DNA from: a bacterium BMS3Abin14
GTDB lineage: Bacteria; BMS3Abin14
Assembly: GCA_002897695.1 (NCBI GenBank)
Contig: BDTG01000008.1
Location: 105,345-169,344, forward strand
Length of the DNA: 64,000 nt
Direction of reading: 5' to 3'
Of this stretch, positions 33,668 through 58,006 are shown one piece after another. Within the stretch, counting starts at the first letter, position 1; each line of letters begins with the position of its first letter. Under the pieces are notes generated by a model, which was given only the letters and a program-made list of their open reading frames with translations, was not told the DNA's origin and made no database searches. The position numbers and the translations under genes are program-made.

Positions 33668-33670
33668 GTG

Positions 33671-34186
33671 TCACCCTCCCAGGCTCAGTTCTTCATCGCC
33701 CCGGATTCCTACCCTCGATTCAATACGGTTCAGGAGAGAACTGATCAGCAGAACGAAAGCGGTGTTGATCACCACAAACCCAATGGCGGATAAGGATGCG
33801 ATGGAAGGCGCTGGAAGGGAAAATATGTACAGGGTCAGAATTTTGGAAACAAACCCACCCAGGACGGCTCCGAAGACCGAACCGGACCGGTGAAAGAGAT
33901 CCCTGGCGAAGAGTTTCTCACTGAGCATGCCTCCCGTGTATCCGGCGACTATCTTGCTGATCCCATTGACCCCAAGTACTCCGCCTGCCATGGCATCCTG
34001 AAAATAGCCCAGAAATACGCCGGAAAGCATTCCGGCTCTCTTTCCCCTTGTGATCGCCACGTGGACCGCACCTATTAAAGGCAGGTCAATGCAGCCCGCC
34101 AGCCACTGTGGGAAAACAAGCGGGACGGCCACGGACTGAAGGACCAACAGCAGAGAGAAAAAGACCAGATGATACAGGACCATCAT
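33671..34186 (-). CDS. mreD: Rod shape-determining protein MreD
   Basis: 171 residues with about five membrane helices (LVFFSLLLVLQSVAVPLVF; MLSGVFLGYFQDAMAGGVLG; SVFGAVLGGFVSKILTLYIF). The motif GYFQDAMAGGVLGVNGI matches MreD. It joins MreC and the SEDS/PBP2 pair in the membrane. It overlaps mreC by ATGA. Assignment is supported mainly by gene order and membrane layout. Confidence 0.9.
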   Translation of the reverse strand: MMVLYHLVFFSLLLVLQSVAVPLVFPQWLAGCIDLPLIGAVHVAITRGKRAGMLSGVFLGYFQDAMAGGVLGVNGISKIVAGYTGGMLSEKLFARDLFHRSGSVFGAVLGGFVSKILTLYIFSLPAPSIASLSAIGFVVINTAFVLLISSLLNRIESRVGIRGDEELSLGG

Positions 34187-35040: not shown

Positions 35041-35044
35041 GAAA

Positions 35045-36130
<1,086 letters not shown>

Positions 36131-38315: not shown

Positions 38316-38351
38316 AAGATGCGGGGGGAACCCGCGCCCTCACGCCATCTT
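38316..38351. terminator. Hairpin between the converging ppiD and kamA-family genes
   Basis: AAGATG (38316-38321) can pair with CATCTT (38346-38351), enclosing GCGGG/CCCGC. There is no run of T on either side, so terminator activity is uncertain. Confidence 0.4.
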
Positions 38352-39927
38352 ACTTGTACTTCAGCAGCCCGGAATCTTCTTTATCATACTCTTTCGGATC
38401 AGCGTCCGGGTAGGAGACCTCCTCCCCGGACCACGGTTTTCTCATGGTAACTTCGGCGCCGGCCCTCCCGACAATATTGTCCCGGTGCATGGGGATCTTG
38501 CCTCCCGCCGTGGAGATATACCGGGGGATGGCATCCCCGGAGATGTTCCCGTACATGCCTTCCACAATATCCCTGCCTGTCTCCACGGGCACACGAAGGT
38601 GGCGAAACTGGGGATTCCGGTAGGAACAGTTGAATATATAGTAGGGCCGCACGTAGGATTCCTGGATGGTCTCGCACAGCTTCCACATCTTCACACTGGT
38701 ATCGTTGATGCCTTTGAGCAGCACAGCCTGGTTCAGTACGGCCGACACCCGGCTGGAAAGATTTTTGAACCCTTCCCGGCTGATGGGGGTTATCTCCTGC
38801 GCGGTGTTGATCTGGGTCACCACGCGCAGCGGCTTTTTCAGGTTGCTGGCATTCAGTATATCGAAAAGTTCGGCGTCAAGCCGCATGGGAACCGTCACGG
38901 GAATCCTGGTGCCGAGACGCTTCATCCTCACATGATCGATGCCGTCCAGTTGCTCCAGTATCCAGCGGATCATCCTGTTGGGGAGCATGAAAGCATCGCC
39001 GCCTGTTATCAGCACATCACGGATGAGGGGGTTGCCGCGGATGTAATCTAAGGCCTCCTGATAGGCGTCCCTGGAATAGATCCGATCCTTCTTCCCGATG
39101 TGGGCGATGCGAAGGCAGTGGGTACAATACATGGCGCAGATATTGGTCACCTTCACACTCACAACCCGGGGGTAGAACTGGTCCACAAGACGTGCAGGGG
39201 AGTGGTCAGCCGCAACGGGCGGTATCTCCTCCCCCACGTTATCCACCATCTCCCCGGTGGGAACCGACTGGATCAGAACGGGGTCATCAAGGCGCCCGGG
39301 CATGATGAGGCCGGCATAGTACGGCGTCAGCCTCATGCGGTAATCGCTGGTAACACGGGTGACGTCCCTTATCGCTGAAGCCGGCAGGTCGATCACCCGG
39401 GCCAGTTCGTCAACGGTGTTGATGGCATACTTCAACTGACCGGGAAACGACCCCCAATCCTCATCGCTCATGCCAAGAGCTTTCCTGATTCTGGCGCCGT
39501 TCTCCTGAATCTGGTCCCAAAGCTCGATTCCGCTGGGGGCCTCGGCATCCTTGTGGGCCATGTAATCAGCCACCCTGGCGTTGGCTGCTTCAACAATCGG
39601 CGCCGCCTTGAGAAGCCGGCCTCCAACCGTTACACCATGCTCATCGATCTGCTGATGTTTCGACGCCAGCTCCTCAATCGTCTCACGGGCAAGGCCGAAA
39701 TCATCGGGAGTAAACACCGCCTCACGTCGATATTTGAGAAGGGCCTCGAACAACAGAATGATTTTCCGGGTTGAACTGTCCTGTAGAGCGCTGTCACATG
39801 CTTCCTTTATACTCGCTGTCTGACCGGAGGAAGGTTTGCTCCCGGCTCCGGTTCCCGTGAACAGTTCATCTATAAGCTCCATGGTAAACTGGTCCGTTTC
39901 ATCGCCTGTAAAACCGCAGCTGTCCAT
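38350..39927 (-). CDS. KamA-family radical SAM aminomutase
   Basis: 525 residues, longer than the roughly 420 of classic lysine 2,3-aminomutase because of about 120 extra N-terminal residues. The cluster motif is CX3CX2C (Cys264, Cys268, Cys271 in CAMYCTHCLRIAHIGKKD). The PLP-binding Lys is expected in STAGGKIPMHRD near the C-terminus, and ITGGDAFML matches the SAM-binding GGD region. Family members move an amino group between C2 and C3 of lysine, glutamate or related substrates. I cannot tell the substrate. No acetyltransferase (ablB) or lysine-degradation gene is next to it. GGAAGGGG precedes the ATG. Confidence 0.85.
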   Translation of the reverse strand: MDSCGFTGDETDQFTMELIDELFTGTGAGSKPSSGQTASIKEACDSALQDSSTRKIILLFEALLKYRREAVFTPDDFGLARETIEELASKHQQIDEHGVTVGGRLLKAAPIVEAANARVADYMAHKDAEAPSGIELWDQIQENGARIRKALGMSDEDWGSFPGQLKYAINTVDELARVIDLPASAIRDVTRVTSDYRMRLTPYYAGLIMPGRLDDPVLIQSVPTGEMVDNVGEEIPPVAADHSPARLVDQFYPRVVSVKVTNICAMYCTHCLRIAHIGKKDRIYSRDAYQEALDYIRGNPLIRDVLITGGDAFMLPNRMIRWILEQLDGIDHVRMKRLGTRIPVTVPMRLDAELFDILNASNLKKPLRVVTQINTAQEITPISREGFKNLSSRVSAVLNQAVLLKGINDTSVKMWKLCETIQESYVRPYYIFNCSYRNPQFRHLRVPVETGRDIVEGMYGNISGDAIPRYISTAGGKIPMHRDNIVGRAGAEVTMRKPWSGEEVSYPDADPKEYDKEDSGLLKYK

Positions 39928-42412: not shown

Positions 42413-42460
42413 CGGCAACAATCTCTGACATGGGATTATATTGCGGTGGAGAGTTACTGA

Positions 42461-43798
42461 TCATCTGGCCTCATTCACCTGGGCCCGGGCACTGACCTCC
42501 GGATTCTCACCGGCAAACAGGGCTGTCCTTTCGTCAACAACTTTCATGTACGATGCCATTTCATCCCGCGGAACCGAGGATGCCCTTGGGACATTAATCC
42601 TTCTCGGATCAACATATCGGCCATTGCGGTACATGGCAAAATGAAGGTGCGGCCCGGTGGCCCTTCCGGTTTGCCCTACATATCCGATGACCTGTCCCTG
42701 ACGTACGTGAGTACCCCTGGAGATACCGGAAGCGAAGGAGTTCAGATGGGCGTATGCGCTGGAATAGGTTGAATTATGGCGTATTTTCAGCATCCTTCCA
42801 TTGACCCGGTCCGTTTTCTTGAGGATCACCGTGCCGTCGCCGATGGTATGCACCGGAGTGCCGATCCTGGCAGTGTAGTCGACACCCAGATGGGGTGTCA
42901 CCCTTTTCGTGACGGGGTTTAACCTTCTGCGTGAAAACCCTGAGCTGATCCTTCTGAATCTCAGGGGCGCCTTGAGAAACTGCTTCCTCAGGCTGCCGCC
43001 CTTCTCATCGAAATATTCGTCGCGACCATGGGCCGGTCTGAAAAGAAAGGCCTGGTGGAGATGCCCGGAATTACTAAAACGGGCCGCAAGGATGCGCCCA
43101 TATTTCACAAACTTGCCATCACGGTAGAATTTCTCCAGCTGGACCGAGAAGACGTCCCCCTTCCTTAAGTCCCTGAAAAAATCTATCTGCCACGCGAACA
43201 TTTCGGCAAGGTCCATGGCCAGGACAGGGTGCTCGCCTGCAGACTCTACGGCATTAAAAAGGGAGTTCTTGATGACACCTGACACCAGCTCGGTCCTTAC
43301 ATCGTACGCAATAGGCTCTACGCTGACCTCCGGCTCCCTGCTGCCCAGGGAAACCCTGACAAGCCGGGTCTCATCGGGTTCGTACTGGTACTCCACCGCC
43401 TCACTACCCCTTTTGATAATCCTGTATGGCCGCCCTGCTACCAGCCTGGCAACATTTACGCCATCCACCCTTTTTGCCGCCAGGGCCATGATGGATCCGT
43501 CCCTGACTCCAAGGCCCTTGAGTATGCCATAGAAGGTTTCCCCCTTTTTTACCTTGAATTCGCTGACCACAGGAGGCGGCGTCAGGGGAAGGGCTTCTTT
43601 CGCGCTGATCGATTTTTCAATAACAATTGGTGGCTTCGGCGGCGCCTTTTCAGCCCTACCGGGCAGGTAGCTGAAACCGGCCAGGCCGATGCCGATGAGG
43701 AGAAGAAAGACAAATGGAGGCCTCACCGGCCTTCTCCGAATGCGGTTGTTCCGTTTTTGCCTCTGGGATGCTGGATATTTCGGACGGTCCCCTCTCAT
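42461..43798 (-). CDS. M23 murein endopeptidase with LysM/OapA-like domain
   Basis: 445 residues. An N-terminal membrane helix (about 29-46, PFVFLLLIGIGLAGFSYLPG) is followed by a LysM-like/OapA-like region (VKKGETFYGILKGLGV), a Csd3/MepM-type middle domain (VSGVIKNSLFNAVESAGEHP), and an M23 domain with the zinc ligands HLGVDYTARIGTP and HLH in GPHLHFAMYRNGRYVDP. It should cut peptide crosslinks in peptidoglycan in the periplasm. The start overlaps the stop of the 95-residue gene by ATGA. Closest known type is MepM/YebA. Confidence 0.92.
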   Translation of the reverse strand: MRGDRPKYPASQRQKRNNRIRRRPVRPPFVFLLLIGIGLAGFSYLPGRAEKAPPKPPIVIEKSISAKEALPLTPPPVVSEFKVKKGETFYGILKGLGVRDGSIMALAAKRVDGVNVARLVAGRPYRIIKRGSEAVEYQYEPDETRLVRVSLGSREPEVSVEPIAYDVRTELVSGVIKNSLFNAVESAGEHPVLAMDLAEMFAWQIDFFRDLRKGDVFSVQLEKFYRDGKFVKYGRILAARFSNSGHLHQAFLFRPAHGRDEYFDEKGGSLRKQFLKAPLRFRRISSGFSRRRLNPVTKRVTPHLGVDYTARIGTPVHTIGDGTVILKKTDRVNGRMLKIRHNSTYSSAYAHLNSFASGISRGTHVRQGQVIGYVGQTGRATGPHLHFAMYRNGRYVDPRRINVPRASSVPRDEMASYMKVVDERTALFAGENPEVSARAQVNEAR

Positions 43799-44082
43799 TC
43801 CCAGATCCTCGCCTCCACCATCAGGCGGAGCACCGCGTCCCGGTCCTCATTCCCTGATTCCTGAAGGTATGCATAAAAGACATCTTCCAGGTCCAGAAGC
43901 GCCATCTCGTGGACCTTGACGATGGGGAAAAAATTATCCGGAAGCTCGGGCAATTCCAGCTGAACCATGTTTCTGACAGCGAGGCTTCGAACCACCCCGA
44001 TGCTGTAGTCACGGCCGTAGCAAGAGAGGGTTTCCCTGGCCTTGCGGACAAGCTCTTCAAGATTATTTTCCATGTTTGTCAT
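43795..44082 (-). CDS. Small conserved-looking protein of unknown function (95 residues)
   Basis: AGGAAG stands six bases before the ATG at 44082. The product has a helical start (MTNMENNLEELVRKARETL), a central strand-rich part (SIGVVRSLAVRNMVQLELP) and a helical end with many acidic residues. No signal peptide or membrane helix is visible. I do not recognise a family. It overlaps the lipoprotein gene (20 bases) and the M23 gene (ATGA), so it is surely translated with them and probably acts in the same process. Confidence 0.6.
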   Translation of the reverse strand: MTNMENNLEELVRKARETLSCYGRDYSIGVVRSLAVRNMVQLELPELPDNFFPIVKVHEMALLDLEDVFYAYLQESGNEDRDAVLRLMVEARIWE

Positions 44083-45109
44083 CGCTTTCTTCCTGAATTT
44101 TTTTAATGCTGTCCAGGCGTTTTCGGACCTCATCGAGGTAACCCTTCAGTTTTCTGTTGTTCGGATCCTGCGCCAGAGCCAGGTTCCAGACCTCCCGGGC
44201 CTGCGTAAACCGTCCCTTGGCGTAGAACTTCAGACCAAGCAGCCTGGCGAATTCCACAACATCGTCCAGCCTCCTCTTTTCCATGGGGCTATCGCCCACG
44301 GTCAGCCCCAGATAATAGTAGGCATCGTTCAGGTTTCCCTGCTCCTCAGCCCGGACGGCCATCTTGAAGGCCTCCCGTACCCTGGACTCTCTGAGGGTCC
44401 TGATCTCCATCAACAGGCGTTGGGCGGGCATGGGCAATACCGTGGCCACCTGATATTTTTGTAAGGTTTTTTCGGCATCGAAGAGACGCCCCTCCTCGAA
44501 ATATTTTCTGGCCAAAGCCAGCTTTTTCCCCGCTTCCAGGCGAATTTCCTGGTCTTTTTCGGCCTTCCGAAGGGCGGCCATATTCTCCACTGTTCCCGGC
44601 CTTCCCGGCATCAGGGATGAAATAGCCTCCAACCGTTTTCTGGCTCCCGCGAGATCTCCCCGCTCCTCAAGATACTGCGCCTCTTCTTCAAGTCCCTCCA
44701 CACGCACTTCAATGGATCGTTCCACACCCAACAACAGTTTTTTGACCCAGTAGTAACGTGGGTAGATCTTCAATGCCTCTCTCATGCTGTCCCTGGCGGC
44801 GCCAAGATCCCCCCTGTTCTTCTCCGTAAAGGCCCTGCGTACGAGAGAATCTGCACGGTCGAGTGTGGCCCTGGAGCGCTTCTGTGCGGCCTGGACATCC
44901 TCGGAACAGAGCTGAAACTCTTCCTTGAGCTGCCGGGCCGCTTCTACTGCCGCCTGATATTCTCCGGATTTGAACAGTCTGTCTACTCTGCCGCACCGGG
45001 TCGTCCTGTCGGTCCATGCCTCCAGATGAGCGCAGCCGGCCATAACCAGCGGAAGAACCACAACAGAGCATAATTTACCTAATCTGTTTTTTCCTTGACC
45101 TCGGTACAT
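44063..45109 (-). CDS. Repeat-helical (TPR-like) lipoprotein
   Basis: 348 residues. The signal peptide ends in a lipobox VMAGC (Cys26). The rest is helical with TPR-like units (KSGEYQAAVEAARQL; NRGDLGAARDSMREALKIYP; GRFTQAREVWNLALAQDPN) and charged coiled-coil stretches. TPR lipoproteins usually act as scaffolds for envelope complexes. It begins inside the end of the HD-GYP gene (31-base overlap). Confidence 0.8.
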   Translation of the reverse strand: MYRGQGKNRLGKLCSVVVLPLVMAGCAHLEAWTDRTTRCGRVDRLFKSGEYQAAVEAARQLKEEFQLCSEDVQAAQKRSRATLDRADSLVRRAFTEKNRGDLGAARDSMREALKIYPRYYWVKKLLLGVERSIEVRVEGLEEEAQYLEERGDLAGARKRLEAISSLMPGRPGTVENMAALRKAEKDQEIRLEAGKKLALARKYFEEGRLFDAEKTLQKYQVATVLPMPAQRLLMEIRTLRESRVREAFKMAVRAEEQGNLNDAYYYLGLTVGDSPMEKRRLDDVVEFARLLGLKFYAKGRFTQAREVWNLALAQDPNNRKLKGYLDEVRKRLDSIKKIQEESDDKHGK

Positions 45110-46440
45110 ATCTCCCCGATCACACCTTCCTGCTCCAGGCTGAGGAACACATCCACGACCGACGGATCAAACTGAGCGCCGGAGTCCGATTTCAGCCTGC
45201 CGACTGCTTCCTCGTGACCCAGGGCCGATCGGTAGGACCGATCCGAAGTCATGGCATCGAATGCATCAACCAGATTGATGATCCGGGATGGCAGAGGGAT
45301 GTCATTGCCTTTTAAACCATCCGGATATCCGGTCCCATCGAAATGTTCATGATGGTATCTGATATAGAATCCCGCTCGCTTCATGGAAGACATGGGACTT
45401 AATATACGCGCACCGATTTCGGGATGGCGTTTCATGTTAAACAGTTCGCCATCCTTCAGGGGACCTGCCTTGCCTATGATGTTCCCATCCACCCCTATCT
45501 TCCCGATATCATGAAGAATGGCCGCCATATCGAGGTCCTTCTGGTCCGCACTGCTCATCCCCATCCGCTCTGCGATAGCGTGGGAGATCCTGGCCACCCT
45601 TTCGCAATGCCCTCTCGTATAGGCATCTTTGGCCTCAACCGCAGCCGCCAGAGAGCTGATCGTCTCCCGAAAGTTCTTCTCTGTTTCGCCTCTGGCCTCC
45701 TGAATCTGTCTGACCATTTCGTTAAAATGCCTGGTCAGCCTTCCCACTTCGTCCCTTCCCCGCGCATCGACATGCACGAGAAAATCCCCGAATCCTACTG
45801 CACGCACCGCCTTGGCAAGCCTCTCAATCTTCCTGGCCTGAACTCCGGCCAGGAAAAAAATTGCAACAATCCCCAGGACGGTTACCGCAAACAGGGGTAA
45901 CAGCAGCCCCACGAGGGTCTCCTTCATCGCACTGTAGATATAGTCTGCTCCCAGGCCAACGACTGCCTTGCCTATCGTGACATCCTCGGCCACTATTGGC
46001 GCGACAAACTGAATAATGCCGGCGGCGGGCGGGGGAACATGGTCAAGATCGATAATACTGTCTGTTTTACCCGGAGTGGAGTGGTAAACAATCCTTCCCT
46101 GATGGTTCACCAGATAGGCATAACGAACATCCTCGTTGAGAAGTGTGGACTCGGTTATCGGCCCAAGACGAAGGTCGTCCGATGCCAGAAGAGGGTCTGT
46201 AGCGTTTACCGCAAGGTTTTCCGCAAGTGATTTGGCCCTCTTCTGGCTCTCAACTGAAAGAAAAATCCACTCGTAACGCACAAGGGAAACAGCGATAACT
46301 CCGGACAGAAGGAGCAGGAGAAGCGAGAAGGAAAGGGCCACCTTGAAACGCAGAGAAAACAGAAAGGGCACACCTTCTGTGGAAAGGACGCTTTTCGCCC
46401 GGGCTTTCATCCCCGGCACGATGCTCTTATCAAGCCCCAC
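45079..46440 (-). CDS. Membrane HD-GYP phosphodiesterase with HAMP domain
   Basis: 453 residues with a GTG start; an ATG at 46410 is an alternative. Membrane helices at about 34-54 and 177-199 enclose a periplasmic sensor domain with a dCache/sCache-like look. A HAMP linker covers about 200-250. The HD-GYP domain shows HDIGKIG (His310, Asp311) and HHEHFDGTGYPDG (about 363-375), including the GYP motif, so hydrolysis of cyclic di-GMP (or a related signal) is expected. It follows the FHA gene by 5 bases. Confidence 0.9.
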   Translation of the reverse strand: MGLDKSIVPGMKARAKSVLSTEGVPFLFSLRFKVALSFSLLLLLLSGVIAVSLVRYEWIFLSVESQKRAKSLAENLAVNATDPLLASDDLRLGPITESTLLNEDVRYAYLVNHQGRIVYHSTPGKTDSIIDLDHVPPPAAGIIQFVAPIVAEDVTIGKAVVGLGADYIYSAMKETLVGLLLPLFAVTVLGIVAIFFLAGVQARKIERLAKAVRAVGFGDFLVHVDARGRDEVGRLTRHFNEMVRQIQEARGETEKNFRETISSLAAAVEAKDAYTRGHCERVARISHAIAERMGMSSADQKDLDMAAILHDIGKIGVDGNIIGKAGPLKDGELFNMKRHPEIGARILSPMSSMKRAGFYIRYHHEHFDGTGYPDGLKGNDIPLPSRIINLVDAFDAMTSDRSYRSALGHEEAVGRLKSDSGAQFDPSVVDVFLSLEQEGVIGEICTEVKEKTD

Positions 46441-46445
46441 AGATA

Positions 46446-47012
46446 TTATTCCTTCGCATTTACGGCGAGCGTTGTGTTTCCGATGGTAAATGTATCACCA
46501 AGATTCAGCCGGGCTGTGAGGACCTTCTTTCCGCCCACGAAAGTTCCGTTTGTGCTCTCCAGGTCTACGAGAAACAGATGTTCATCGAAGATCTTGACCT
46601 GACAGTGGTTCCGGGAAACCTCGGAATCGTTAATTGCAATATCAGCATCAGCCGCGCTCCTGCCCAGCGTAACCACAGGTTTGTCAACAGGATAAACGTC
46701 ACCGCCGGGCAGGGCCGCCAGAAAATATCTCTTCCCCTCTTTGAGATGAGGTTTTTCGAGGGAAGCCTCCCGCAAAAGATCCTTCACCGCGCTTTTGCTC
46801 TGATCAATCTCCTGAAAATCATAGGACATGGTCTGGCTGTAATCCACAGGAGGAGAGCCCATACGGTTGACGGAAGAGCCGCCGCCCCCTTGTCTGGACG
46901 GGATCAGTATATCATGACCACACTTGGGACAGATCAACTTCGCCCCACCGGCAGGTATCTTTTCATCGGTCACCCGATATTGGGTCTGGCAGCTGCCGCA
47001 ATTTATCTTCAT
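46446..47012 (-). CDS. FHA-domain protein with N-terminal zinc ribbon
   Basis: 188 residues. The first 40 hold a zinc ribbon of the MJ0042 type (INCGSCQTQYRV to CPKCGHDILIP; CxxC twice). A Gly/Ser-rich linker leads to an FHA domain (about 110-185) with GRSAADADI, SEVSRNHC and STNGTFVGGKKV, the phosphothreonine-binding loops. There is no membrane segment. FHA domains recognise phosphothreonine, but no Ser/Thr kinase gene lies in this window. It may recruit a phosphorylated partner of the actin/envelope system. Confidence 0.88.
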   Translation of the reverse strand: MKINCGSCQTQYRVTDEKIPAGGAKLICPKCGHDILIPSRQGGGGSSVNRMGSPPVDYSQTMSYDFQEIDQSKSAVKDLLREASLEKPHLKEGKRYFLAALPGGDVYPVDKPVVTLGRSAADADIAINDSEVSRNHCQVKIFDEHLFLVDLESTNGTFVGGKKVLTARLNLGDTFTIGNTTLAVNAKE

Positions 47013-47057
47013 CCTGCTTCATCCTCTCTCATCGTGTTCTGCATTGCCATGACATCG

Positions 47058-49844
47058 TCACCGGTACACCGGCATTTTGACCACGGAGAAACGATTCCCG
47101 TCGAATTTAAAAACTCCCTTGTCCGTATGGAACCATTTGTTATCCGACAGATCCACAGCGATTACGGGAACAGAGCGTCCGAAAAACCCCTGGTCCGGGC
47201 CGAAAATAACCCATTTTTTTCCATCGTACCGTGCAATTCCGCTGTCCCCGGTTCCGATCCAGACGTTCCAGCGCCCGTCAACGGCGACGGCTGTCACCCT
47301 GTCGGAAGGAAGACCGTCTACATGGGTAAAGACCCTGATCACCTTGTCGTGAAAACTGGCTAACCCCTTGTCGGTCCCGATCCAGAAAACTCCGTTGGCA
47401 TCAATGGCCAGCGCGTTCACATTGTTGTCCGGAAGGCCATCCCTGGATGTGTAAACTTTGAAGGAATTGCCGTCAAAACGGGCTAGCCCCTTGTCGGTGC
47501 CAAACCAGAGATTCCTTTTCTGATCCACAACGATACAGTTGATAAAGTTGCTCGGAAGACCATCGCCGTAATCGAAGGTCACCCAATTCTTCAGGCCATC
47601 GAACTGGGATACACCTTTGTCGGTTCCGATCCATTTGAAGCCCAGCCGGTCAACCGCGATGGCCCGGACGGAATTGCTGATAAGTCCGTCCCTTATGGTG
47701 AAGTTCTTTCTCCTCTTGTTTATGATGTTTACCCTGAAAAGCCCCTCCTGGCCTCCAACCCACAGGAATTTCCCGTCCAGTACGCTGGGGAAGATAAACA
47801 CTCCGTTAGTGTTATCCCTCCACAGGCCACTCACAACTGTGTAGCTTGCGGTCCTGACTTTTTCGTGGTTCCCCGCCCGGTCCACGGCGAAAAACCTTAC
47901 TGTGGCCTTGTCACGCAGAACCAGGGGAACGGTATATTTGGGGGATCTGTCGGTGGGTTCCGCACCATCCAGGGTATAACGGATAACCGCGTTCTTCTCA
48001 CTCTTGAGCTCCAGAGTGATGGGGGGATTGTATTGACCCGGCGCTGGGTAGGCGATGGTGTTGGGAGGCTCGGAATCGATGATATATTCAGCCATCTGGA
48101 TCTGTTCCCTGTTCCCGGTCTCATCCTCGGAGTAAAAGAATATTTTTCCGCTTTTGCTCAGCACGAAAGGCCCACCGTAAATGGAAAACTTCCCTTGCGC
48201 TCCCGTTCTGACGAATATCCTGCCGCCCTTCTCGGATTTAAGGGACACGCTCACGGGCCTGCTGTAAATTCCAGCCGGCGGATCCACGGTGGTTGACGGG
48301 GGCGTATGATCAAAGGTGTATTTTACGGATTTAACGACCTCTCTGTTTCCGGATTCGTCAGTTGCGAAAAACTTCAGAACAGTATCCCGGGTCACCGGCA
48401 CAGGGTTTTCATATTCCGGCGAGGCCTCGCTCGGAGTGCTTGTGTCGGTGGTGTAGCGAATGACGGCATTATCCTCGGTCTTTAATACGACGCGGATAGG
48501 CCCTGCAAACACACCCCCACCGGGGTCGACGGAGGTGACCGGCGGGGTACGGTCCAGCACGTAGCGCTGACTGGCAGCATCACTCCGGTTGCCGACCTTA
48601 TCCACGGCGAAGTACGATAAAATGGCATTTCCGGCTACGTTGATGGGGCCACGATATTTCAATGACTGCCGTGTCACCGGACTTCCGTCGAGTGTATAGA
48701 AAATATCCGCCGGCTCGGAGGTTTCCAGTTTGACCCGAATTCTTCCGGAATAGTTGCCGCCTTTCGGGCGAGGCGTCACAGTGGGAGGAGTGGTATCGAT
48801 AACAAACGCGGCCGAGGCTATCTTACCCCGGTTGCCGGCCTCGTCCACCGCAAAATATTTCAGGACCATGGAACGGGTCAGCATTATGGCGCCATGGTAG
48901 ATCGGTGACGAGGGACCAGGTTCACGTTCACCGGTCTCGTACCGGATCGCCCCCTTCTCATTTGATGACAGGGTAACGTTAATCGCGGCTCCATAGGTCC
49001 CCGGATGGGGTTTCACCTTAACCACGGGAGGTTTGGTGTCGATCACATATCGCTCCTCGCGGACAGTCTCCCTGTTCCCCGCCCCATCAACGGCAAAAAA
49101 ACGCAGGACCCCACTGCGCTGGAAGGTGATGGGTTTCAAATAGGAGCGGGACCTCGAGGTAGGCCGGCCTCCATCGAGGGTGTAATGAATCCTGGCGCCC
49201 TTTTCACCAATGAGCGAAACGGTTACGGGACTGTTGAACAGTCCGCCGGACGGATCGGCGATGGTCACAGGCCTGGTATTGTCGACAAGGACATGGTAGA
49301 CCTCCGTCCTGACCCCCTCCCTGTTTTCCGCCTTGTCCATGGAAAAGAATTTAATTGAGGCATCCCTCTTTATTGTGATGGGTTTACTGTAGACGGGCGA
49401 GTCGTCACCGGGGACGCTTCCGTCAACGGTGAATCGGGTGACGGCATCCTTTTCGCTGGTCAGGCGAACGGATATGGGATGGTTGTACTTTCCCCCCTTT
49501 GGACGGGCCATCGTAACGGGAGGCTCCGTATCCAGACGCACGTGAAAACCCGAGGTCTGTATTTCCGAACCGTTTCCCGCATGATCCCTGGCAAAATATC
49601 GTATCTTTGCGTCGTCCCGCAAGATGACGGGAACGAGGTAGGGCATAAGCGCCTGATCACCGATGGAATAGAACACGACGGCCCCCTCCTCGGTGGTAAA
49701 AACCACTGAGACAGCCTTGTTGTAGGTCCCCGGGGCAGGATGGATGGAAACAGTCGGCGGGGTTTTGTCAAACGGAAAAAATCGGACGGCGACAGCCACG
49801 ACCGCAAGAATAATGGCCAGGAACAGAAAAACCTTGCCTCTCAT
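47058..49844 (-). CDS. Envelope protein: eight chitobiase-C-like repeats and a six-bladed propeller
   Basis: 928 residues. An N-terminal helix (about 6-22) anchors or exports the protein. Residues about 27-670 are eight repeats of about 75 residues with the pattern DxTPPxT...PGGxYxxPxxVxLxxExGAxIxYTLDG...ILxFFAVDxAGNxE, as in the chitobiase/beta-hexosaminidase C-terminal domain (CHB_HEX_C_1). Residues about 690-928 form a two-component-regulator-type propeller with six blades (WIGTDKGLxxFDG). No enzyme domain is present. It overlaps the actin gene by ATGA, so the two proteins are probably made together. Confidence 0.85.
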   Translation of the reverse strand: MRGKVFLFLAIILAVVAVAVRFFPFDKTPPTVSIHPAPGTYNKAVSVVFTTEEGAVVFYSIGDQALMPYLVPVILRDDAKIRYFARDHAGNGSEIQTSGFHVRLDTEPPVTMARPKGGKYNHPISVRLTSEKDAVTRFTVDGSVPGDDSPVYSKPITIKRDASIKFFSMDKAENREGVRTEVYHVLVDNTRPVTIADPSGGLFNSPVTVSLIGEKGARIHYTLDGGRPTSRSRSYLKPITFQRSGVLRFFAVDGAGNRETVREERYVIDTKPPVVKVKPHPGTYGAAINVTLSSNEKGAIRYETGEREPGPSSPIYHGAIMLTRSMVLKYFAVDEAGNRGKIASAAFVIDTTPPTVTPRPKGGNYSGRIRVKLETSEPADIFYTLDGSPVTRQSLKYRGPINVAGNAILSYFAVDKVGNRSDAASQRYVLDRTPPVTSVDPGGGVFAGPIRVVLKTEDNAVIRYTTDTSTPSEASPEYENPVPVTRDTVLKFFATDESGNREVVKSVKYTFDHTPPSTTVDPPAGIYSRPVSVSLKSEKGGRIFVRTGAQGKFSIYGGPFVLSKSGKIFFYSEDETGNREQIQMAEYIIDSEPPNTIAYPAPGQYNPPITLELKSEKNAVIRYTLDGAEPTDRSPKYTVPLVLRDKATVRFFAVDRAGNHEKVRTASYTVVSGLWRDNTNGVFIFPSVLDGKFLWVGGQEGLFRVNIINKRRKNFTIRDGLISNSVRAIAVDRLGFKWIGTDKGVSQFDGLKNWVTFDYGDGLPSNFINCIVVDQKRNLWFGTDKGLARFDGNSFKVYTSRDGLPDNNVNALAIDANGVFWIGTDKGLASFHDKVIRVFTHVDGLPSDRVTAVAVDGRWNVWIGTGDSGIARYDGKKWVIFGPDQGFFGRSVPVIAVDLSDNKWFHTDKGVFKFDGNRFSVVKMPVYR

Positions 49845-50875
49845 TTTTCGGACCCGGACGCCTGGTTACTGCCATCGAAAAAATATCGGGCGTATTTTAC
49901 ATACCCTGATACATTGGTCATTCGAGGATCATCCCTCGTCTGAAGAAGGGCGATCTCCCCACGGACCATTGGCTTGATGAACTCAAAGAGGGCATCACCA
50001 CCGCCGCCGGCCAGAAGAACCAGGTCCAGATCCCAATCATCTACCCATATTCTTTCCATGTCGTTAACAATCGCCGCAGCCAACCTGGAGAAAACATCCT
50101 CCTTGACCTTGGCGATGTCGTATTCTGCCCCCCGGACCTTGATGCTGCCCTCCCTGACGGTATCGTATAGACGATAGATCTCCACGTTAACACCGCTCAT
50201 CTCCCGCAGGGATTCTCCGATAAACTGGAAAGCCTTGGCCATCCCCGTGTCGGTTGTTCTGCTTCCTCTCTCCGAATGTCTGAGCCCCTTGCAGACGGTA
50301 AAATCAGTGGTCTTGAAACCTATGTCGATTATTCCGATTTTCTGGCGTGCGGCGTCTCCCCGGAGCATGGTGCCGTCCTCACGAAAAAGGTAGTCTACCA
50401 GGCTTCCGTATGGCTGTGGAATTACCCTGACCCGGTTAATGGCCAGCGATATTTCCTTGCTTTCACCCCCGTCATGGACGATCAGGTCGTGTTCCCCCAA
50501 AAGCGTTTGGGAAATCTTTTCCTTAAACTCCATAAAGTATCCCACAGGCAGGCCCGTTACCACATTCAGGGGGACACGGCTGGGAGCAATCTGGGCCAGG
50601 CCGGCAAGCGCCAGCAAGCGGAACTGATTTGCAACCATCTGCGCCTGATCCAGAGTAAACTGACGCACCCTCGATTCGGATTCCGCCAATTCCCCGACAA
50701 AATAGGACTTTCCATCCAGGGTAATATGCCCCCCGGAGTGGGAGGATCCATTGAAAAACTCATCGTCAAGGGTGCGTGGTTGAGTCTCACCAATGATCGA
50801 TTTAAAGAGGACGGATGATTCCCCATCCGATGCTTTTGTGAAACCGAAACCTACATCAACACCAGCCATCAGCAT
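49841..50875 (-). CDS. ParM-type actin-like ATPase
   Basis: 344 residues. The frame is open to 51067, but GAGGAG six bases before the ATG at 50875, and the actin motif right after it, fix the start. Actin-fold motifs are AGVDVGFGFTKASDGE (phosphate 1), IGIIDIGFKTTDF (phosphate 2) and LVLLAGGGGDALFEF (adenosine), closest to the ParM/StbA branch that segregates plasmids. Here there is no parR-like gene or centromere repeat, and its neighbours are envelope genes, so plasmid segregation seems unlikely. It begins ten bases after the 613-residue gene ends. Confidence 0.85.
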   Translation of the reverse strand: MLMAGVDVGFGFTKASDGESSVLFKSIIGETQPRTLDDEFFNGSSHSGGHITLDGKSYFVGELAESESRVRQFTLDQAQMVANQFRLLALAGLAQIAPSRVPLNVVTGLPVGYFMEFKEKISQTLLGEHDLIVHDGGESKEISLAINRVRVIPQPYGSLVDYLFREDGTMLRGDAARQKIGIIDIGFKTTDFTVCKGLRHSERGSRTTDTGMAKAFQFIGESLREMSGVNVEIYRLYDTVREGSIKVRGAEYDIAKVKEDVFSRLAAAIVNDMERIWVDDWDLDLVLLAGGGGDALFEFIKPMVRGEIALLQTRDDPRMTNVSGYVKYARYFFDGSNQASGSEK

Positions 50876-50885
50876 AATTTTCTCC

Positions 50886-52727
50886 TCATTTATCTCTTTC
50901 CCTGATTCGATCCATGGCCTCATCTTCCAACCTGTATTGAGCCTGGAACTCTCTCTCGAGTTCCTCAACCCTGATGAGGTCCAGGCCGCTGGATCGGATA
51001 AACTCCTCACGGATCCAGGGGTTCTTCTCCTTGACCGCCCCGGGAAGAACCTTGCTGACGTAAACACGTTCCATTTTCAGGTCATCAAGGGCTTTTCGCA
51101 GAAAGGCATCCGGCATCCCAGACCTGACAAAGCCTTTGGATGTCAACATTTTTTTAACATCCCCGACGAAAGCATTCTCTTCGTCCTCACCCCGGAGTGA
51201 ACGCCCGAATTTCTTCAGCCACCGGTCCATGGCAGCTTTAACAATACGGTATTCCTTCTCATCCCTCGTGAGGGTCCCCAGTGAGATTACCAGATCCTGC
51301 AGCGCAAGATCGCCCGTGGCAATTTTTTTAAGCCCTGATGAAAGGGCCTGGATCTTTTTCCTGCCGGTGCCGGGAAGATAGGGATTTTTCAGAATAGGGT
51401 CCAGGAACAGCTCATGAAAGAGGCCATCCTGTATTTCCTCAAAAATCCTGCGATTGGCCAGAAGGCTCCTCGCCCGTTCCAGTGATAGCTTCTCCTCCTC
51501 ATGAAAAGCCATTCGATTGACCACATTATATACGGTATCAAACCTGTCGAAGTAGGTTATAATATTCCCGAACTCCTCGAGGATAGCCGGGTCCTCGGTC
51601 CTGGTGCTGAATTCATCGCACTCCTTGCCCACCTCGATTAATATTCTGTCGAATACGGAATCGCGATTCTCCAGAGCGGAAAGCTTTGTCTTCAGCAGAC
51701 GGATGAGGTCCACCCTTTCCAGGCGAGCGCCTATGCGCCGGGTCTGGAGCAGGATGGTTTCCAGCACACCCCTTGCCTCAACGAGGTATTCGGGAACCTC
51801 GGTTGCCACGATTCTTTTGTTGCCGAGGAGCTTTTCATCCAGCGCATTCAGGAAGTTATCCGGGATTCCCTTTCGTAGCGCCAATGTCCTCAATCGGGAT
51901 ATCTTGGCACTCTGATCGAAACGGATTTCGTCCCCCCTCCATATCTCAGCAAGAACGGATCTGTACTCATCAATGACCCGTCTGTTCTCGTTGTCCCTAA
52001 ACATTATGTCGATCTTGATACGCTCCCGGGAATAGGGATCAATCTCCAGTCGCTCCGCCAGATTCTGCAGGATGATCTGTTCCTCCTCCCCAAGGACGTG
52101 TGAGCGTGAATAGAGTTCACGAAACTTGACGTAAAATTCGCGATGGGACCGATTCACCAGTTTCAGAAGAAAAAAGGCCGCTCCCAGTTCAGACCATTGA
52201 GCATTCAGTTCCTCCGCGATTTTAGAGTCGTCGCCGTCCAGCTCGAGGGGAAACCTTTTGAGGGATTTCCCGAGAACCCTGAGGATTTTCTCCTGTTGTT
52301 TTTTGAGAGATATGCGGGTTAAAAATTGTATGGAGAAGTAATAGTTGTAGACAGTGTGCCCACGGAGGAAGACATCCTTGAACGATTCACTTCCCGATGT
52401 ATTCCTTGTTAACCGGATACCGGGAACCGGATCGTGTCGTGCCCCGAAAAGAACAAGGCGGTTGACAACGTCCGGCTTGACAAGATCCTCAACCGGCTCA
52501 TCTACCCCGAACATATATGGGCAGAAACTGCCCCCATTACCGGTGTGGGAAACACCGTCGGGACCGACAATATACTCATTGCCGCCGCAAAAAAAGCGGT
52601 GTCGGAGAACGCCGTCCTCATCAATTACCTCGTGAAAATAATGGTTCCCGAGTCCAAATCCACTCAGCGTCGCATAGAATTCCTTGTCCGGTCCAGCCAC
52701 TCCGTGGACCCTGAGATCCTTTATCAT
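50886..52727 (-). CDS. Unrecognised 613-residue protein beside the actin gene
   Basis: I do not recognise its family with certainty. It is cytoplasmic by appearance: no signal peptide or membrane helix. The first 100 residues are strand-rich (HGVAGPDKEFYATLSGFGLG; FFCGGNEYIVGPDG). The remainder is helical and charged, with coiled-coil stretches (KIDIMFRDNENRRVIDEYRS; RARSLLANRRIFEEIQDGLF) and a basic/acidic C-terminal helix. Its position directly before the actin gene (10-base gap) suggests an actin partner or adaptor. The ribosome-binding site is weak. Confidence 0.7.
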   Translation of the reverse strand: MIKDLRVHGVAGPDKEFYATLSGFGLGNHYFHEVIDEDGVLRHRFFCGGNEYIVGPDGVSHTGNGGSFCPYMFGVDEPVEDLVKPDVVNRLVLFGARHDPVPGIRLTRNTSGSESFKDVFLRGHTVYNYYFSIQFLTRISLKKQQEKILRVLGKSLKRFPLELDGDDSKIAEELNAQWSELGAAFFLLKLVNRSHREFYVKFRELYSRSHVLGEEEQIILQNLAERLEIDPYSRERIKIDIMFRDNENRRVIDEYRSVLAEIWRGDEIRFDQSAKISRLRTLALRKGIPDNFLNALDEKLLGNKRIVATEVPEYLVEARGVLETILLQTRRIGARLERVDLIRLLKTKLSALENRDSVFDRILIEVGKECDEFSTRTEDPAILEEFGNIITYFDRFDTVYNVVNRMAFHEEEKLSLERARSLLANRRIFEEIQDGLFHELFLDPILKNPYLPGTGRKKIQALSSGLKKIATGDLALQDLVISLGTLTRDEKEYRIVKAAMDRWLKKFGRSLRGEDEENAFVGDVKKMLTSKGFVRSGMPDAFLRKALDDLKMERVYVSKVLPGAVKEKNPWIREEFIRSSGLDLIRVEELEREFQAQYRLEDEAMDRIRERDK

Positions 52728-52827
52728 CGGGAAAATGTTATATTATTTTGCCCTGGATGTCTTGTGTTTGTTAAAGGATCAATGGGATATAAACCCCGCG
52801 TTCCAGCGCCTTACAGCTGCCGGGTTG

Positions 52828-54816
52828 CTAAGGCGATTCCTCCCTCACCCAGCGCCCCCCCGTAAATCGGGCCACTCCGCCCCGGGTCGCAACCCACACC
52901 TCACCATCGATATCGGGGGCAATGAGGATAATGACGTTGCTCGGCAGCCCATCCTTCCGCCTGTAGGTTCTCCAGTTGGCGCCATCGAACACCGAGATAC
53001 CATCCGGTGTGCCGCACCATACGTTCCAGAGGGAATCCAGGGCAACGGTTCGAACCTCGTTTTTTGCCAGACCGCTTTCTCTGGTAAAGTTACGCCACTT
53101 TGACCCAGTGAACATTGAAAGACCTTTTCTGGTGCCGAACCACTTGTTCCCGAGGGCATCCACAGCAATGGCCAGGACGGTATCGTCCAGTAGCCCGTCC
53201 TTTTTTTTGAGGACCTCCAGAACGACATCCCCCTTGATGTGAGCCACCCCGTTTTTTGTCCCGGCCCAGATGGAATTGTCGATGTCCACACCCAGGCTGA
53301 TGACCTCTCTGGACGGCAGTCCCTGTTTTGTTCCAACATTGAAAGATTCGCCAGCCCTCTTCCTGACCGTTATGCCCGCCTCGGTGGCTATCCACAGGTC
53401 GTCTTTCTCATCTAAAACCATATCGTTGATTTTACCGCCGGAAAGACCCTCCCGCTGTCCGACAAACTTCCGCGAACCCGATCCGATGGTGTAGACGACC
53501 AGACCCGTTTCGGAACCCATCCAGAGCGTGTGCCCGTCCGTCACGCTGGGCAGCAGGAACACCCCGCGTGCGTACTTCCGCCAGACTCCATTGATAAATA
53601 GATATCGATGGGTCTGGACAGCCTCCTTATTGCCGAGTCTGTCCACGGCGAAGAACTTCAAAATGGTGGGGATCTTGAATGTCAAAGCATTGGAATAGAC
53701 AGGGCTATCGGTATCCGGGGCGCTCCCATCAAGGGTGTAATGGATGACCGCTCCCTCTTCGGTTCCAAGTGTAACGGATACGGGCGGTCTGTATTCGCCC
53801 CCGGGGGGCGTCACAGTGGTCTTCGGAGGTGTTGAGTCGAAGGTGTACTCCGCCGTTTTAACCTTCTCTCTGTTGTCCATCCGATCCACTGAAAAATATT
53901 TCAAAACAGTATTGTGATCCAGGACCAGGGGAACGTTATAGGTGTGTGAGTCAAGCCCGGGCTCGGTATCAACCACATACGTTGCCACATGGGTCCCGCT
54001 GCGATTGTGGGCCCGGTCAACGGCAAAAAAACTGAGGACAGTATTGCCCCTGAGGGGGAAAGGTTTTTTATATTTAATTGATTTTTCAGTGGGATTCGAT
54101 CCGTCAAGGGTATAGTACAACTCGCATTTCTCATCTGCCTTGAGATGGACAAGATCACCGGTTTTATACTCCTCTGGAGAGGGTGTAACGGTTGGTTCCG
54201 GCGGGGTCATATCCACAATCCTGTCGCTCAGGCTGAAACTGTAACGCTCCGATCTTACGGGTTCTCTTGTCCCATCTCTTCCCATGGAGAAAAATTTTAA
54301 AATAGTATCACTGGTCAGAAGGACAGGCGAGGTAAACACAGGGCTGCCGGTATCCGGGTCCGAACCATCCATGGTGTAATAGACGGCAGCTCCGACACTG
54401 CCTTCCAGCTTGACCCGGATGCCTCCTGAAAAATGCCCTCCCCCTGGAGTTGCGACGGTCAACAGACGGTCAGGGCTGGATTCCGGCAGATCTATTCGAT
54501 AAAAGGCCTCCTTCACGGCGCCAATGATCCCCGACACGTCCACAGTAATATACCGGATAACCGTATTTTCTTCGATGTCGACGGGGGAACTGAACGCAGG
54601 GGAGTTTAAAGAAGGTTCAGTACCATCCAGTGTGAAATGGGCGCTTGCCCCGGCAGGCAACACGAATCTGACCGAGACAGCCTTGTGGTAAGTTCCAGGC
54701 GGCGGAGTCAGGACGGCATCCAGTGACCGGGCATCCGGGAGATGAAAAAACAGTGAGAACCCGAGAAAAATCAGGAATAACAGGATAGCAGGGCCGCGAT
54801 GCGGTTTCAAAGTCAA
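52828..54816 (-). CDS. Envelope protein: five chitobiase-C-like repeats (one truncated) and a six-bladed propeller
   Basis: 662 residues with a TTG start behind GGAGGAG. A signal helix (AILLFLIFLGFSLFFHLP) is followed by five CHB_HEX-type units (about 35-430) and a six-bladed propeller (about 435-662; WIATEAGITV, WFGTRKGLSMF, WVATRGGVARF). It is a shorter paralogue of the 928-residue protein downstream. The fourth unit lacks about 35 residues of its first half: DTEPG runs straight into LDSHTYNVPLVL. First gene of the run, with a good promoter upstream. Confidence 0.85.
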   Translation of the reverse strand: MTLKPHRGPAILLFLIFLGFSLFFHLPDARSLDAVLTPPPGTYHKAVSVRFVLPAGASAHFTLDGTEPSLNSPAFSSPVDIEENTVIRYITVDVSGIIGAVKEAFYRIDLPESSPDRLLTVATPGGGHFSGGIRVKLEGSVGAAVYYTMDGSDPDTGSPVFTSPVLLTSDTILKFFSMGRDGTREPVRSERYSFSLSDRIVDMTPPEPTVTPSPEEYKTGDLVHLKADEKCELYYTLDGSNPTEKSIKYKKPFPLRGNTVLSFFAVDRAHNRSGTHVATYVVDTEPGLDSHTYNVPLVLDHNTVLKYFSVDRMDNREKVKTAEYTFDSTPPKTTVTPPGGEYRPPVSVTLGTEEGAVIHYTLDGSAPDTDSPVYSNALTFKIPTILKFFAVDRLGNKEAVQTHRYLFINGVWRKYARGVFLLPSVTDGHTLWMGSETGLVVYTIGSGSRKFVGQREGLSGGKINDMVLDEKDDLWIATEAGITVRKRAGESFNVGTKQGLPSREVISLGVDIDNSIWAGTKNGVAHIKGDVVLEVLKKKDGLLDDTVLAIAVDALGNKWFGTRKGLSMFTGSKWRNFTRESGLAKNEVRTVALDSLWNVWCGTPDGISVFDGANWRTYRRKDGLPSNVIILIAPDIDGEVWVATRGGVARFTGGRWVREESP

Positions 54817-56091: not shown

Positions 56092-57381
56092 TCAGTCCGC
56101 ATCCGCATCCTCGTCCTTTCCGTCCTGGGAGATGCCGTATTTTTTCACCCGGTCAAAAAAGGTTGATTTAGGTATTCCCAGCCACTTGGCGGCCGCCCTG
56201 ATGTTCCCTTCCGACCTTTCCATGGCACGGGTGTAGTACATCCTTTCCAGTTCCTCCAGGGTATGAGGGGTCTCCTCATCCTCCTCGTAGCCCGTCATGG
56301 GATCATCCCCGTCATCCATGAAGATAAGGTCCTCCCTGTCTATGGCCCCTCCACCTTTCAGTATGCAGGCACGCTCAAGAACGTTTTTCAGCTCCCTTAC
56401 ATTTCCAGGCCAGGTGTGTCCCTCAAGCCTTTCCATGGCATCGGGAAGTATTGCGGACCGTCCCATCAAGAAATACTGCGCCAGAACAGGTATGTCATCT
56501 TTTCTCTGCCGCAGTGAGGGCACCGAAAGAGGGAGGACGAAAAGCCGGTAGAGAAGATCGGCGCGAAAAGTCCCCTGTTCCACACCCTTTTTCAGATGTC
56601 GGTGGGTAGCAGCCACCACCCGAACATCCACGCTGGTACTGCCCTGGGAACCCACTCTCCTGATCTCGCCTGACTCAAGGACCCTGAGGAGCTTCGGCTG
56701 GAGGCTGAGGGACAGTTCGCCGATCTCGTCGAGGAAAAGGGTGCCGCCATGCGCCTGCTCAAAGGCCCCCTTCCTGGCCGAAGAAGCCCCGGTAAACGCC
56801 CCCTTCTCATGGCCGAACAGCTCACTTTCCACAAGGTCCCGCGAAATTGCCCCGCAGTTGATGGCAACGAACGGACCCGATGAACGCCCGCCCCGGTTGT
56901 GGAGCGCCCTGGCCACAAGTTCTTTGCCGCATCCCGTTTCGCCCATGATCAGCGCGGTTCCTCCGGATGAGGAGATCCTGTCGATCATCTCAAACAGGCG
57001 AGTCATGGCTTCGGACCTTCCCACCATCCCCTCGAACATGGATTCATCCCCAGATGAAGATCCCCCCCTGATCTCGGTTTCCTTATCCCACTCGGATTCC
57101 TCCTGGGTCAGGCGGAGTTGGTACGGACCTATGGTAAACTCATCACCGCGGGAGAGAATGGCCTTTTCGATCCTCTCCCCTTCAATCCAGGTTCCGTTGC
57201 TGCTCCGGTCCATCAGGGTGTAGCGGGCGCCCTGACGAACCAGATTGGCGTGGTGACGGCTCACAGTCTGATGAGGAAGAATAATCTGATTTTTCCTGCC
57301 ACGGCCAATTCGCAGCTGGGAACTGCTGCCGACATGGTATCCCCCAAGGTACTGGTCGCCCTTATAAACATCTATACGCAT
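56092..57381 (-). CDS. Sigma54-dependent activator with N-terminal FHA domain
   Basis: 429 residues from the ATG at 57381; an ATG at 57396 and the frame limit at 57408 are alternatives. The FHA domain covers about 1-95 (GRGRKNQIILPHQTVSRHH, RSSNGTWIEG). The AAA+ domain has Walker A GETGCGKE, GAFTGA in KGAFTGASS for sigma54 contact, and Walker B TLFLDEIGEL. A Fis-type HTH ends the protein (GNIRAAAKWLGIPKSTFFDR). The FHA replaces the usual receiver, so activity should depend on a phosphothreonine. It is last in the AOR-aldolase operon, 1 base behind the aldolase stop. Confidence 0.9.
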   Translation of the reverse strand: MRIDVYKGDQYLGGYHVGSSSQLRIGRGRKNQIILPHQTVSRHHANLVRQGARYTLMDRSSNGTWIEGERIEKAILSRGDEFTIGPYQLRLTQEESEWDKETEIRGGSSSGDESMFEGMVGRSEAMTRLFEMIDRISSSGGTALIMGETGCGKELVARALHNRGGRSSGPFVAINCGAISRDLVESELFGHEKGAFTGASSARKGAFEQAHGGTLFLDEIGELSLSLQPKLLRVLESGEIRRVGSQGSTSVDVRVVAATHRHLKKGVEQGTFRADLLYRLFVLPLSVPSLRQRKDDIPVLAQYFLMGRSAILPDAMERLEGHTWPGNVRELKNVLERACILKGGGAIDREDLIFMDDGDDPMTGYEEDEETPHTLEELERMYYTRAMERSEGNIRAAAKWLGIPKSTFFDRVKKYGISQDGKDEDADAD

Positions 57382-57382
57382 T

Positions 57383-58006
57383 TTACCAATCCCCATGCCC
57401 GTCATCACCTATGATCCCCTCGGGCGACAGCCCCATGGCCATGCATCGAAGGAGAATATCGCAGGACCATTCCAGCGAGTGGGAGATCTGAAGCCCCTCC
57501 TCAAGAGTTCCGCCAGTCGCGAAGGCCCCGTGCCCCCTGACCATAACGATGGGAAAATCTTTCAGGAGAGGGGGCAGGCCCTCCTCCATTTCCCCGGAAC
57601 CGATGGCGCGTTCAGCCTGAAAAACCGGGATCCTTTTGAAATAGTACCGGCCCTCCACATCCACGGGGACTATATTGTCCCTCCCCAGAGAAAGGGCCGT
57701 GGCGGAGCGCGGATGGGAATGGACAATAGCCAGCGCCGAGGTGGAACGATAGATTGCCCGGTGGACATTGACCTCCGTGGAGGCGATGGCAATTCCGCTG
57801 TCATCCTGCTTGAGGCCGACCGGGACAAGGTCGGAAGGGCAAAGTTCCCCCAACATTGACCCACGGCGAGTGATCACCAGTTGGTCACCGATTCGAACGC
57901 TGAGATTGCCGCTGTGGGAGTTATTAAGCCCACTCTGTAACAGGAACCGTCCGATGCGGGCAAATTCCGCTGCCAGCCTGTCCCAGGATTCGCCTTCCAT
58001 CCTCAT
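57383..58006 (-). CDS. Class II aldolase/adducin-family protein
   Basis: 207 residues from the ATG at 58006, which overlaps the AOR-family stop (ATGA). Motifs are SHSGNLSVRIGDQLVITRRGS, the catalytic Glu in TEVNVHRAIY, zinc His residues in IVHSHPRSATA, and a third His in VRGHGAFATGG. Members split sugar phosphates to dihydroxyacetone phosphate plus an aldehyde (fuculose-, deoxyribulose-phosphate types) or work as epimerases or dehydratases. Pairing with an aldehyde oxidoreductase favours an aldehyde-releasing aldolase; that is inference. Confidence 0.85.
   Translation of the reverse strand: MRMEGESWDRLAAEFARIGRFLLQSGLNNSHSGNLSVRIGDQLVITRRGSMLGELCPSDLVPVGLKQDDSGIAIASTEVNVHRAIYRSTSALAIVHSHPRSATALSLGRDNIVPVDVEGRYYFKRIPVFQAERAIGSGEMEEGLPPLLKDFPIVMVRGHGAFATGGTLEEGLQISHSLEWSCDILLRCMAMGLSPEGIIGDDGHGDW

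Follow-up and report, generated by a model that had tools for sequence, protein, structure and literature searches.

A chromosomal ParM-type actin apparently without ParR, encoded beside a TIGR04442 protein in an envelope operon of bacterium BMS3Abin14

What does an actin of the ParM type do on a bacterial chromosome, in the midst of envelope genes and with no recognisable parR beside it? Here we address this question for a cluster of nine minus-strand genes in a stretch of 64,000 nucleotides (nt) from bacterium BMS3Abin14, a member of an uncultured lineage (genome G000; contig BDTG01000008.1, positions 105,345 to 169,344), hereafter referred to as the window. An earlier note on this DNA had read the nine genes as one cytoskeletal system that positions or builds an envelope structure under cyclic-di-GMP (c-di-GMP) and phosphothreonine control. 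All nine are present, from position 54816 down to 42461 (Table 1), and encode, in this order, a repeat/propeller protein (PropA), a protein of family TIGR04442, the actin, a second repeat/propeller protein (PropB), an FHA protein, an HD-GYP sensor, a TPR protein, a small protein and an M23 peptidase; the range given in the note (43795–54816) contains eight of them and leaves out the M23 gene (42461–43798). Their spacing is operon-like. From PropA to M23 the junctions measure +100, +10, −4, +45, +5, −31, −71 and −4 nt, with overlaps at four of the eight ('most', in the note, was slightly overstated) and gaps of 5 to 100 bases at the others. The overlap between the TPR and small-protein genes is −71 nt, or about −20 nt with a later start backed by the L142 orthologue, whose first residue corresponds to residue 18 of the long form. 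Of greater interest is the actin, which belongs to a chromosomal clade, ParR-less by gene content, that was apparently recruited beside TIGR04442 in one family.

The actin gene starts at the ATG at position 50875, which is preceded by a GAGGAG ribosome-binding site and lies 10 nt past the stop of the TIGR04442 gene; an open reading frame (ORF) start giving 408 residues was rejected in favour of this ATG. Phosphate motif 2 is retained (DIGFKTTD). The closest solved structure is pCBH ParM (profile E 5e-39), and the profile also matches Dh-cParM1 (8x1i; E 1e-22) and CorM (9rmi; E 7e-18). The match to the FcmB model NF052678 reaches 57.1 bits, under its cut-off of 300 bits. An AlphaFold2 (AF2) model of the actin had a predicted local distance difference test score (pLDDT) of 47, with too few diverse rows in the alignment, and was not used for any claim about the fold. 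Within the window's family (12 genomes; the next listed kin share only the domain), the actin is the best-conserved product of the operon, with 70–83% identity among relatives compared with 59–69% for TIGR04442 and 57–66% for full-length PropB. The search reported a single in-frame TGA in the actin of G386 (L145), which may be an end effect.

The PHROGs label for this actin is 'partition protein' (198.8 bits), which, together with pCBH ParM as nearest structure, would suit a ParM system, working or relic, for segregation of the chromosome or a plasmid. We regard this as very unlikely. The actin is flanked by two large proteins, TIGR04442 and PropB, neither of which is a ParR, so the note's chromosomal ParM-type actin without parR holds (ALP_N, 120.8 bits); its statement that there is no centromere agrees with the lack of a parC-type direct-repeat array in the three gaps examined at the window locus. 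The contig, 169 kb long, also carries the mre/rod genes and further housekeeping genes, and strong constraint falls on the actin alone.

The distribution of the actin places it in a wider clade. In a first sample of 386 genomes it seemed confined to two lineages; a later search of the Desulfuromonadia phylum (that of reference G319) overturned this, with strong matches to actin profile A3 in 16 of 395 sampled genomes. A second small phylum and 15 Desulfuromonadia-phylum genomes contain close relatives (41–46% identity); plasmid relatives reach only 23–30% identity. Weaker relatives (24–32% identity) occur in the phylum of G134, the Desulfuromonadia phylum and viral contigs. Next to the weaker or mobile actins lies a gene of 79–111 residues, overlapping or adjoining the actin gene downstream, at the place of parR. 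ParR sequences are divergent, and neither Pfam nor PHROGs recognises these small genes as ParR; they are called ParR-like on size, position and that known divergence only. The clade members checked have no recognisable gene at the ParR position; behind a few of them there are only short ORFs, unrelated to each other and probably spurious. In a tree of 37 actins, 26 ParR-less ones from three lineages make up one side of a branch with support 85/87, and a single change on this tree accounts for the ParR-less label. The ATP-site residues (D7, G9, T13, D184, G186, T189, D191 and G290–292) are invariant across these 26. Gene content and tree thus point to a clade of ParR-less, chromosomal ParM-type actins present in several phyla. 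With no plasmid-type parR recognised in the clade members checked and no repeat array in the three gaps examined at the window locus, plain partition is an unlikely role for the clade as well.

The 613-residue partner of the actin, 'unrecognised' according to the note, is a clear member of TIGR04442: residues 3–609 match the NCBIfam model at 536.9 bits, against a cut-off of 150. Scanning contigs of other genomes gave 284 relatives, and the best 80 belong to the window's family, to Nitrospirota or to Desulfuromonadia, in the last two of which the protein is common; a search of plasmids gave none. At no examined locus outside the window's family does an actin lie within 10 kb of TIGR04442. The AF2 model of the protein (pLDDT 86, predicted template-modelling score 0.62) predicts a beta-rich alpha/beta N-terminal domain (residues 1–195) followed by a long helical C-terminal part. 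Aligned with VIA-align, residues 1–195 resemble the SpoIIE phosphatase (5mqh; Z 10.1, 137 residues, 4.3 Å) and PP2C alpha (4raf; Z 10.1, 140 residues, 3.4 Å). Foldseek returned zero matches at E < 0.001, with PP2C folds at E about 1; a profile search against solved structures gave nothing noteworthy, hhalign against SpoIIE-type domains gave a probability of 0.1, and the active-site aspartates are not conserved in residues 1–195, where D81 is the sole invariant Asp. Because the PP2C-like fold was seen by the second aligner only and the profiles were silent, an active PP2C phosphatase was rejected; the N-terminal domain is predicted to be an inactive PP2C-like domain, if it is related to PP2C at all. 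The TIGR04442 gene of G149 (L026) has a single in-frame TGA according to the search, possibly an end effect.

TIGR04442 has recurring neighbours of its own. Of 36 Desulfuromonadia/Delta loci, 28 have the MBL-fold gene of the GPMC system (NF038231) on the TIGR04442 strand, and 21 have the NF038230 regulator nearby on that strand. Among 38 Nitrospirota loci, trpE lies on the same strand in 11; separately, a lytic transglycosylase gene stands divergently on the opposite strand at 17 of the 38 (for example L070, L079, L085, L091 and L105). Within the window's family, 10 of the 11 genomes searched encode a GAF/sigma-54 homologue of the NF038230 regulator, which directly follows the M23 gene in the four examined (G001, G003, G005 and G009); the GPMC MBL-fold gene was not seen beside it. 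A similar regulator follows TIGR04442 itself in Desulfuromonadia, so the actin operon seems to have grown out of an older neighbourhood of TIGR04442 and regulator. These data, together with the PP2C-like fold predicted for the N-terminal domain, also suit a different emphasis, in which TIGR04442, as an inactive PP2C-like signalling protein, and the sigma-54 regulator form the signalling core (GPMC), which regulates the envelope genes as its output, and the actin joined late and counts for little. We consider this unlikely, although it deserves serious weight and overlaps in part with the explanation favoured below: the family regulators score 912–963 bits (350 for a fragment in G008), all under the 1200-bit cut-off of NF038230, the window genome yielded no NF038230-like regulator at E 1e-80, and the SpoIIE comparison was as poor as stated above. 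A sigma-54 promoter pattern was not found above chance.

The operon recurs across the family. Seven genomes, from six genera, share the order TIGR04442–actin–PropB, with the FHA, HD-GYP, TPR, small-protein and M23 genes following where contigs permit. The nine-gene cluster is therefore far from a chance arrangement, because gene order is kept among relatives whose core operon proteins are 57–83% identical. There are local variations. PropA adjoins TIGR04442 in some relatives, and arginase-family, spermidine synthase and AdoMet decarboxylase genes intervene in others (L035, L036, L037 and L041); in G002 (L034:1386–4867), the FHA gene is flanked by two HD-GYP sensor genes, an apparent duplication within the operon. 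By hydropathy, PropA, PropB, the M23 protein and the TPR protein span or lie outside the inner membrane, the HD-GYP protein has two transmembrane segments, and the actin, TIGR04442, FHA and small proteins are soluble.

The explanation that we favour, tentatively and a little short of an even chance, is that a ParR-less chromosomal ParM-type actin was recruited into a TIGR04442 envelope operon in an accessory role, and that TIGR04442 may serve as its adaptor. The clade, its missing ParR-like gene, its chromosomal setting and its ATP motifs are observed; the direction of change is our inference. The actin of the clade would have left mobile elements, lost parR and parC, and turned chromosomal in several phyla. 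In the window's family it would then have been placed within the envelope operon, between TIGR04442 and the membrane-anchored repeat/propeller protein PropB. There it may polymerise with ATP as a cytosolic or membrane-near filament, for which TIGR04442, encoded just before it, may stand in for ParR as adaptor. Such a filament might, by way of PropB and the periplasmic proteins, help to place peptidoglycan remodelling or surface material, with the M23 endopeptidase as the putative route to peptidoglycan, and the HD-GYP protein (c-di-GMP) and the FHA protein (reading kinase targets) could supply signal input. A bolder version, a new envelope cytoskeleton in which an inactive PP2C-like TIGR04442 adaptor couples filaments of a ParM-derived actin to the propeller protein and the endopeptidase under c-di-GMP/FHA control, joined to a ParR-less clade in at least three phyla, seems to us rather improbable.

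Several observations weigh against the favoured explanation. The pairing of actin and TIGR04442 is restricted to one family. Within it, G001, of the window's own genus, has an actin cut to a relic of about 27 codons by two internal deletions, with the remaining operon proteins all 74–86% identical to those of the window; in G010 (a second genus, 71% complete), TIGR04442 is followed directly by PropB and no actin was found in the genome; and G009 (81% complete) has actin–PropB without TIGR04442. The branch support of 85/87 is moderate and several of the mobile rows are long branches. Finally, in the 15 Desulfuromonadia-phylum genomes, actins of the same clade stand among varied housekeeping genes, a setting that points to a function outside the operon. 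At those loci (15 of the 16 were read, L201–L215, with four genes on each side and neighbours named from the starts of their sequences) the solitary actins lie near, for example, RNase R-like, aroE-like and purD-like genes, and no TIGR04442 or envelope-operon genes were recognised except one HD-GYP gene on the other strand. The neighbourhoods of L201–L215 are shared only among near relatives. The G001 relic (L032:8571–8671, about 100 bp) still has its ribosome-binding site, its start and a stop that overlaps the gene behind it. In G003 (73% complete), TIGR04442 and actin fragments lie about 52 kb apart.

This distribution would also fit an independent cytoskeletal actin, with a general role in shape or in chromosome or organelle placement, that is merely co-transcribed with the envelope operon in the window's family. 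The actin has a different context again in the second phylum, and in G001 and G010 the operon persists without it. Yet the actin occupies the slot between TIGR04442 and PropB in all seven genomes, from six genera, that share the order, with a gap of 10 nt and an overlap of 4 nt in the window, and the neighbours in the second phylum are again envelope proteins: all three genomes there carry the actin in an envelope-gene row. We therefore rate an independent actin as a doubtful but substantial alternative. The second-phylum row itself (L139, L140 and L146) reads TPR lipoprotein, LysM protein, transmembrane protein, actin and permease-like protein.

The reading of the set as one obligate machine for the envelope, driven by the actin and controlled by c-di-GMP and phosphothreonine, fares considerably worse. 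Conservation of the operon in the family and its domain content would be in keeping with it: the HD-GYP motifs are intact (ILHDIGK and HHEHFDGTGYP), and the window genome encodes c-di-GMP enzymes and Ser/Thr kinases (eight GGDEF proteins and three kinases), with no PP2C or SpoIIE phosphatase found there. Control by c-di-GMP or phosphothreonine is, however, suggested by domains only. Against such a machine, the actin is lost and the rest stays in G001 and G010, TIGR04442 occurs elsewhere without actin, and actin occurs elsewhere without envelope genes; we judge it improbable. Because the rest of the operon survives loss of the actin, the actin is accessory rather than core, and because many other bacteria have an actin of this kind on its own, the actin is separable from the envelope genes and the two form no fixed machine. 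The note's suggestion of searching jointly for the actin and its 613-residue neighbour bore out their linkage within the family (seven genomes), with each found apart elsewhere. The note had also held that the idea of one system would fail if related genomes carried actin and envelope genes apart, or the actin with parR and repeats on plasmids; the first is largely what G001 and G010, the TIGR04442 loci of Nitrospirota and Desulfuromonadia, the 15 Desulfuromonadia-phylum genomes and the second phylum display, and the second was not seen for this actin clade. Its single-machine reading is thus partly refuted: the genes are linked in the family and do not form one obligate system.

Table 1. Genes of the operon and the rod actin gene of the window (positions are those of the window).
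Feature	Coordinates	Strand	Properties and evidence
PropA	52828..54816	-	662 residues; N-terminal transmembrane/signal segment, five CHB_HEX_C/Fn3_assoc repeats, C-terminal Reg_prop propeller; Pfam and hydropathy
TIGR04442 family protein	50886..52727	-	613 residues, soluble; NCBIfam 536.9 bits
ParM-type actin	49841..50875	-	344 residues, ATG at 50875; ALP_N 120.8 bits, MreB-like_C 59.1 bits (Pfam)
PropB	47058..49844	-	928 residues; N-terminal transmembrane anchor (segment 5–23), at least seven CHB_HEX_C repeats, Reg_prop propeller; Pfam and hydropathy
MJ0042 zinc ribbon and FHA domain protein	46446..47012	-	188 residues; Pfam and NCBIfam
Membrane sensor, HAMP and HD-GYP	45079..46440	-	453 residues; Pfam HD_5 E 2e-37, HAMP E 1e-10
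TPR protein, signal/lipobox-like start (VMAGC)	44063..45109	-	348 residues; Pfam TPR and sequence
Small conserved protein	43795..44082	-	95 residues from orthologue-supported start; ORF from 44133
M23 peptidase, MepM/ShyA/ShyC-like, membrane-anchored	42461..43798	-	445 residues; Pfam M23 E 1e-29
MreB (outside the operon)	35045..36082	-	NCBIfam MreB 533 bits; ordinary rod actin

Two of the operon products need further comment: the M23 peptidase matches the NCBIfam models ShyC (227 bits) and MepM (184 bits), each under its own cut-off, and the small 95-residue protein has zero matches in Pfam or PHROGs. About 6.4 kb beyond the operon lies a complete row of mreB, mreC, mreD, PBP2 and rodA (30711–36082; PBP2 682 bits, NCBIfam; mreC, mreD and rodA called from position and the start of their sequences), and the window genome thus also has an ordinary rod actin. 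Directly after the M23 gene (at 42421–42461), where relatives have the GAF/sigma-54 regulator, the window has RlmD; G001 retains the regulator after M23, and RlmD is reduced there to a fragment. An FHA–sigma-54 activator gene (56092–57408, minus strand) lies just upstream of the operon and is operon-adjacent in G001 too. Further away, at 38350–39927, is a KamA-family radical SAM protein with an extra N-terminal part of about 110 residues, for which the nearest model is glutamate 2,3-aminomutase (321 bits, below cut-off).

The clade adds a probable case, outside cyanobacteria and Firmicutes, of an actin for plasmid segregation that turned chromosomal and dropped ParR altogether. It raises a testable question, namely what a ParM-type actin does without ParR, and whether another protein, here TIGR04442, serves as its adaptor. 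TIGR04442 for its part gains a predicted two-part architecture and recurring neighbours, and the idea of the whole set as one machine is corrected. A literature search, which reached few subscription journals, found nothing on TIGR04442 or the GPMC system, on CorM, or on ParR-less chromosomal ParM in Desulfobacterota. Compared with the GPMC system (NF038230 and NF038231), the window protein is a clear TIGR04442 member and the operon of its relatives ends in an NF038230 homologue, whereas the actin and envelope genes are additions in the window's family.

CorM has a role in cell shape. As the actin of CorM–CorR it is a solved relative of the window actin, but the window has no adjacent ParR-derived membrane adaptor. 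Plasmid ParMRC, including pCBH ParM, belongs to the same actin subfamily by sequence, whereas the window actin is chromosomal, with no parR or parC seen. Mad28 and MamK, the magnetosome actins, are second chromosomal actins besides MreB in Thermodesulfobacteriota and Nitrospirota, and in Mad28 a Ser replaces the Asp of phosphate motif 2 (PMC10653835); unlike Mad28, the window actin retains the motif, and no magnetosome genes were recognised around it. The chromosome-encoded ParMs Dh-cParM1 and Cb-cParM are kept across a genus, and those of Desulfitobacterium and Clostridium polymerise; the chromosomal ParMs studied have cParR, one also parC, and a ParR-less cassette is cited only as a Natranaerobius example (PMC12270681). 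They resemble the window actin in being chromosomal and of the ParM type, and differ from it in having cParR. The nearest precedents in function are CorM and FcmB–FcmC. In filamentous cyanobacteria FcmB, a chromosomal actin derived from ParM, assembles into membrane filaments on which rod shape depends (PMC12645912). Like the window actin, whose role there is putative, FcmB–FcmC is chromosomal, derived from plasmid ParM and set in an envelope context, but FcmB keeps an adjacent ParR-derived partner, FcmC, and the window actin has no such partner. Since it also fails the FcmB cut-off, we place the window actin among the chromosomal ParM-type actins rather than with FcmBC, CorMR or ParCMR.

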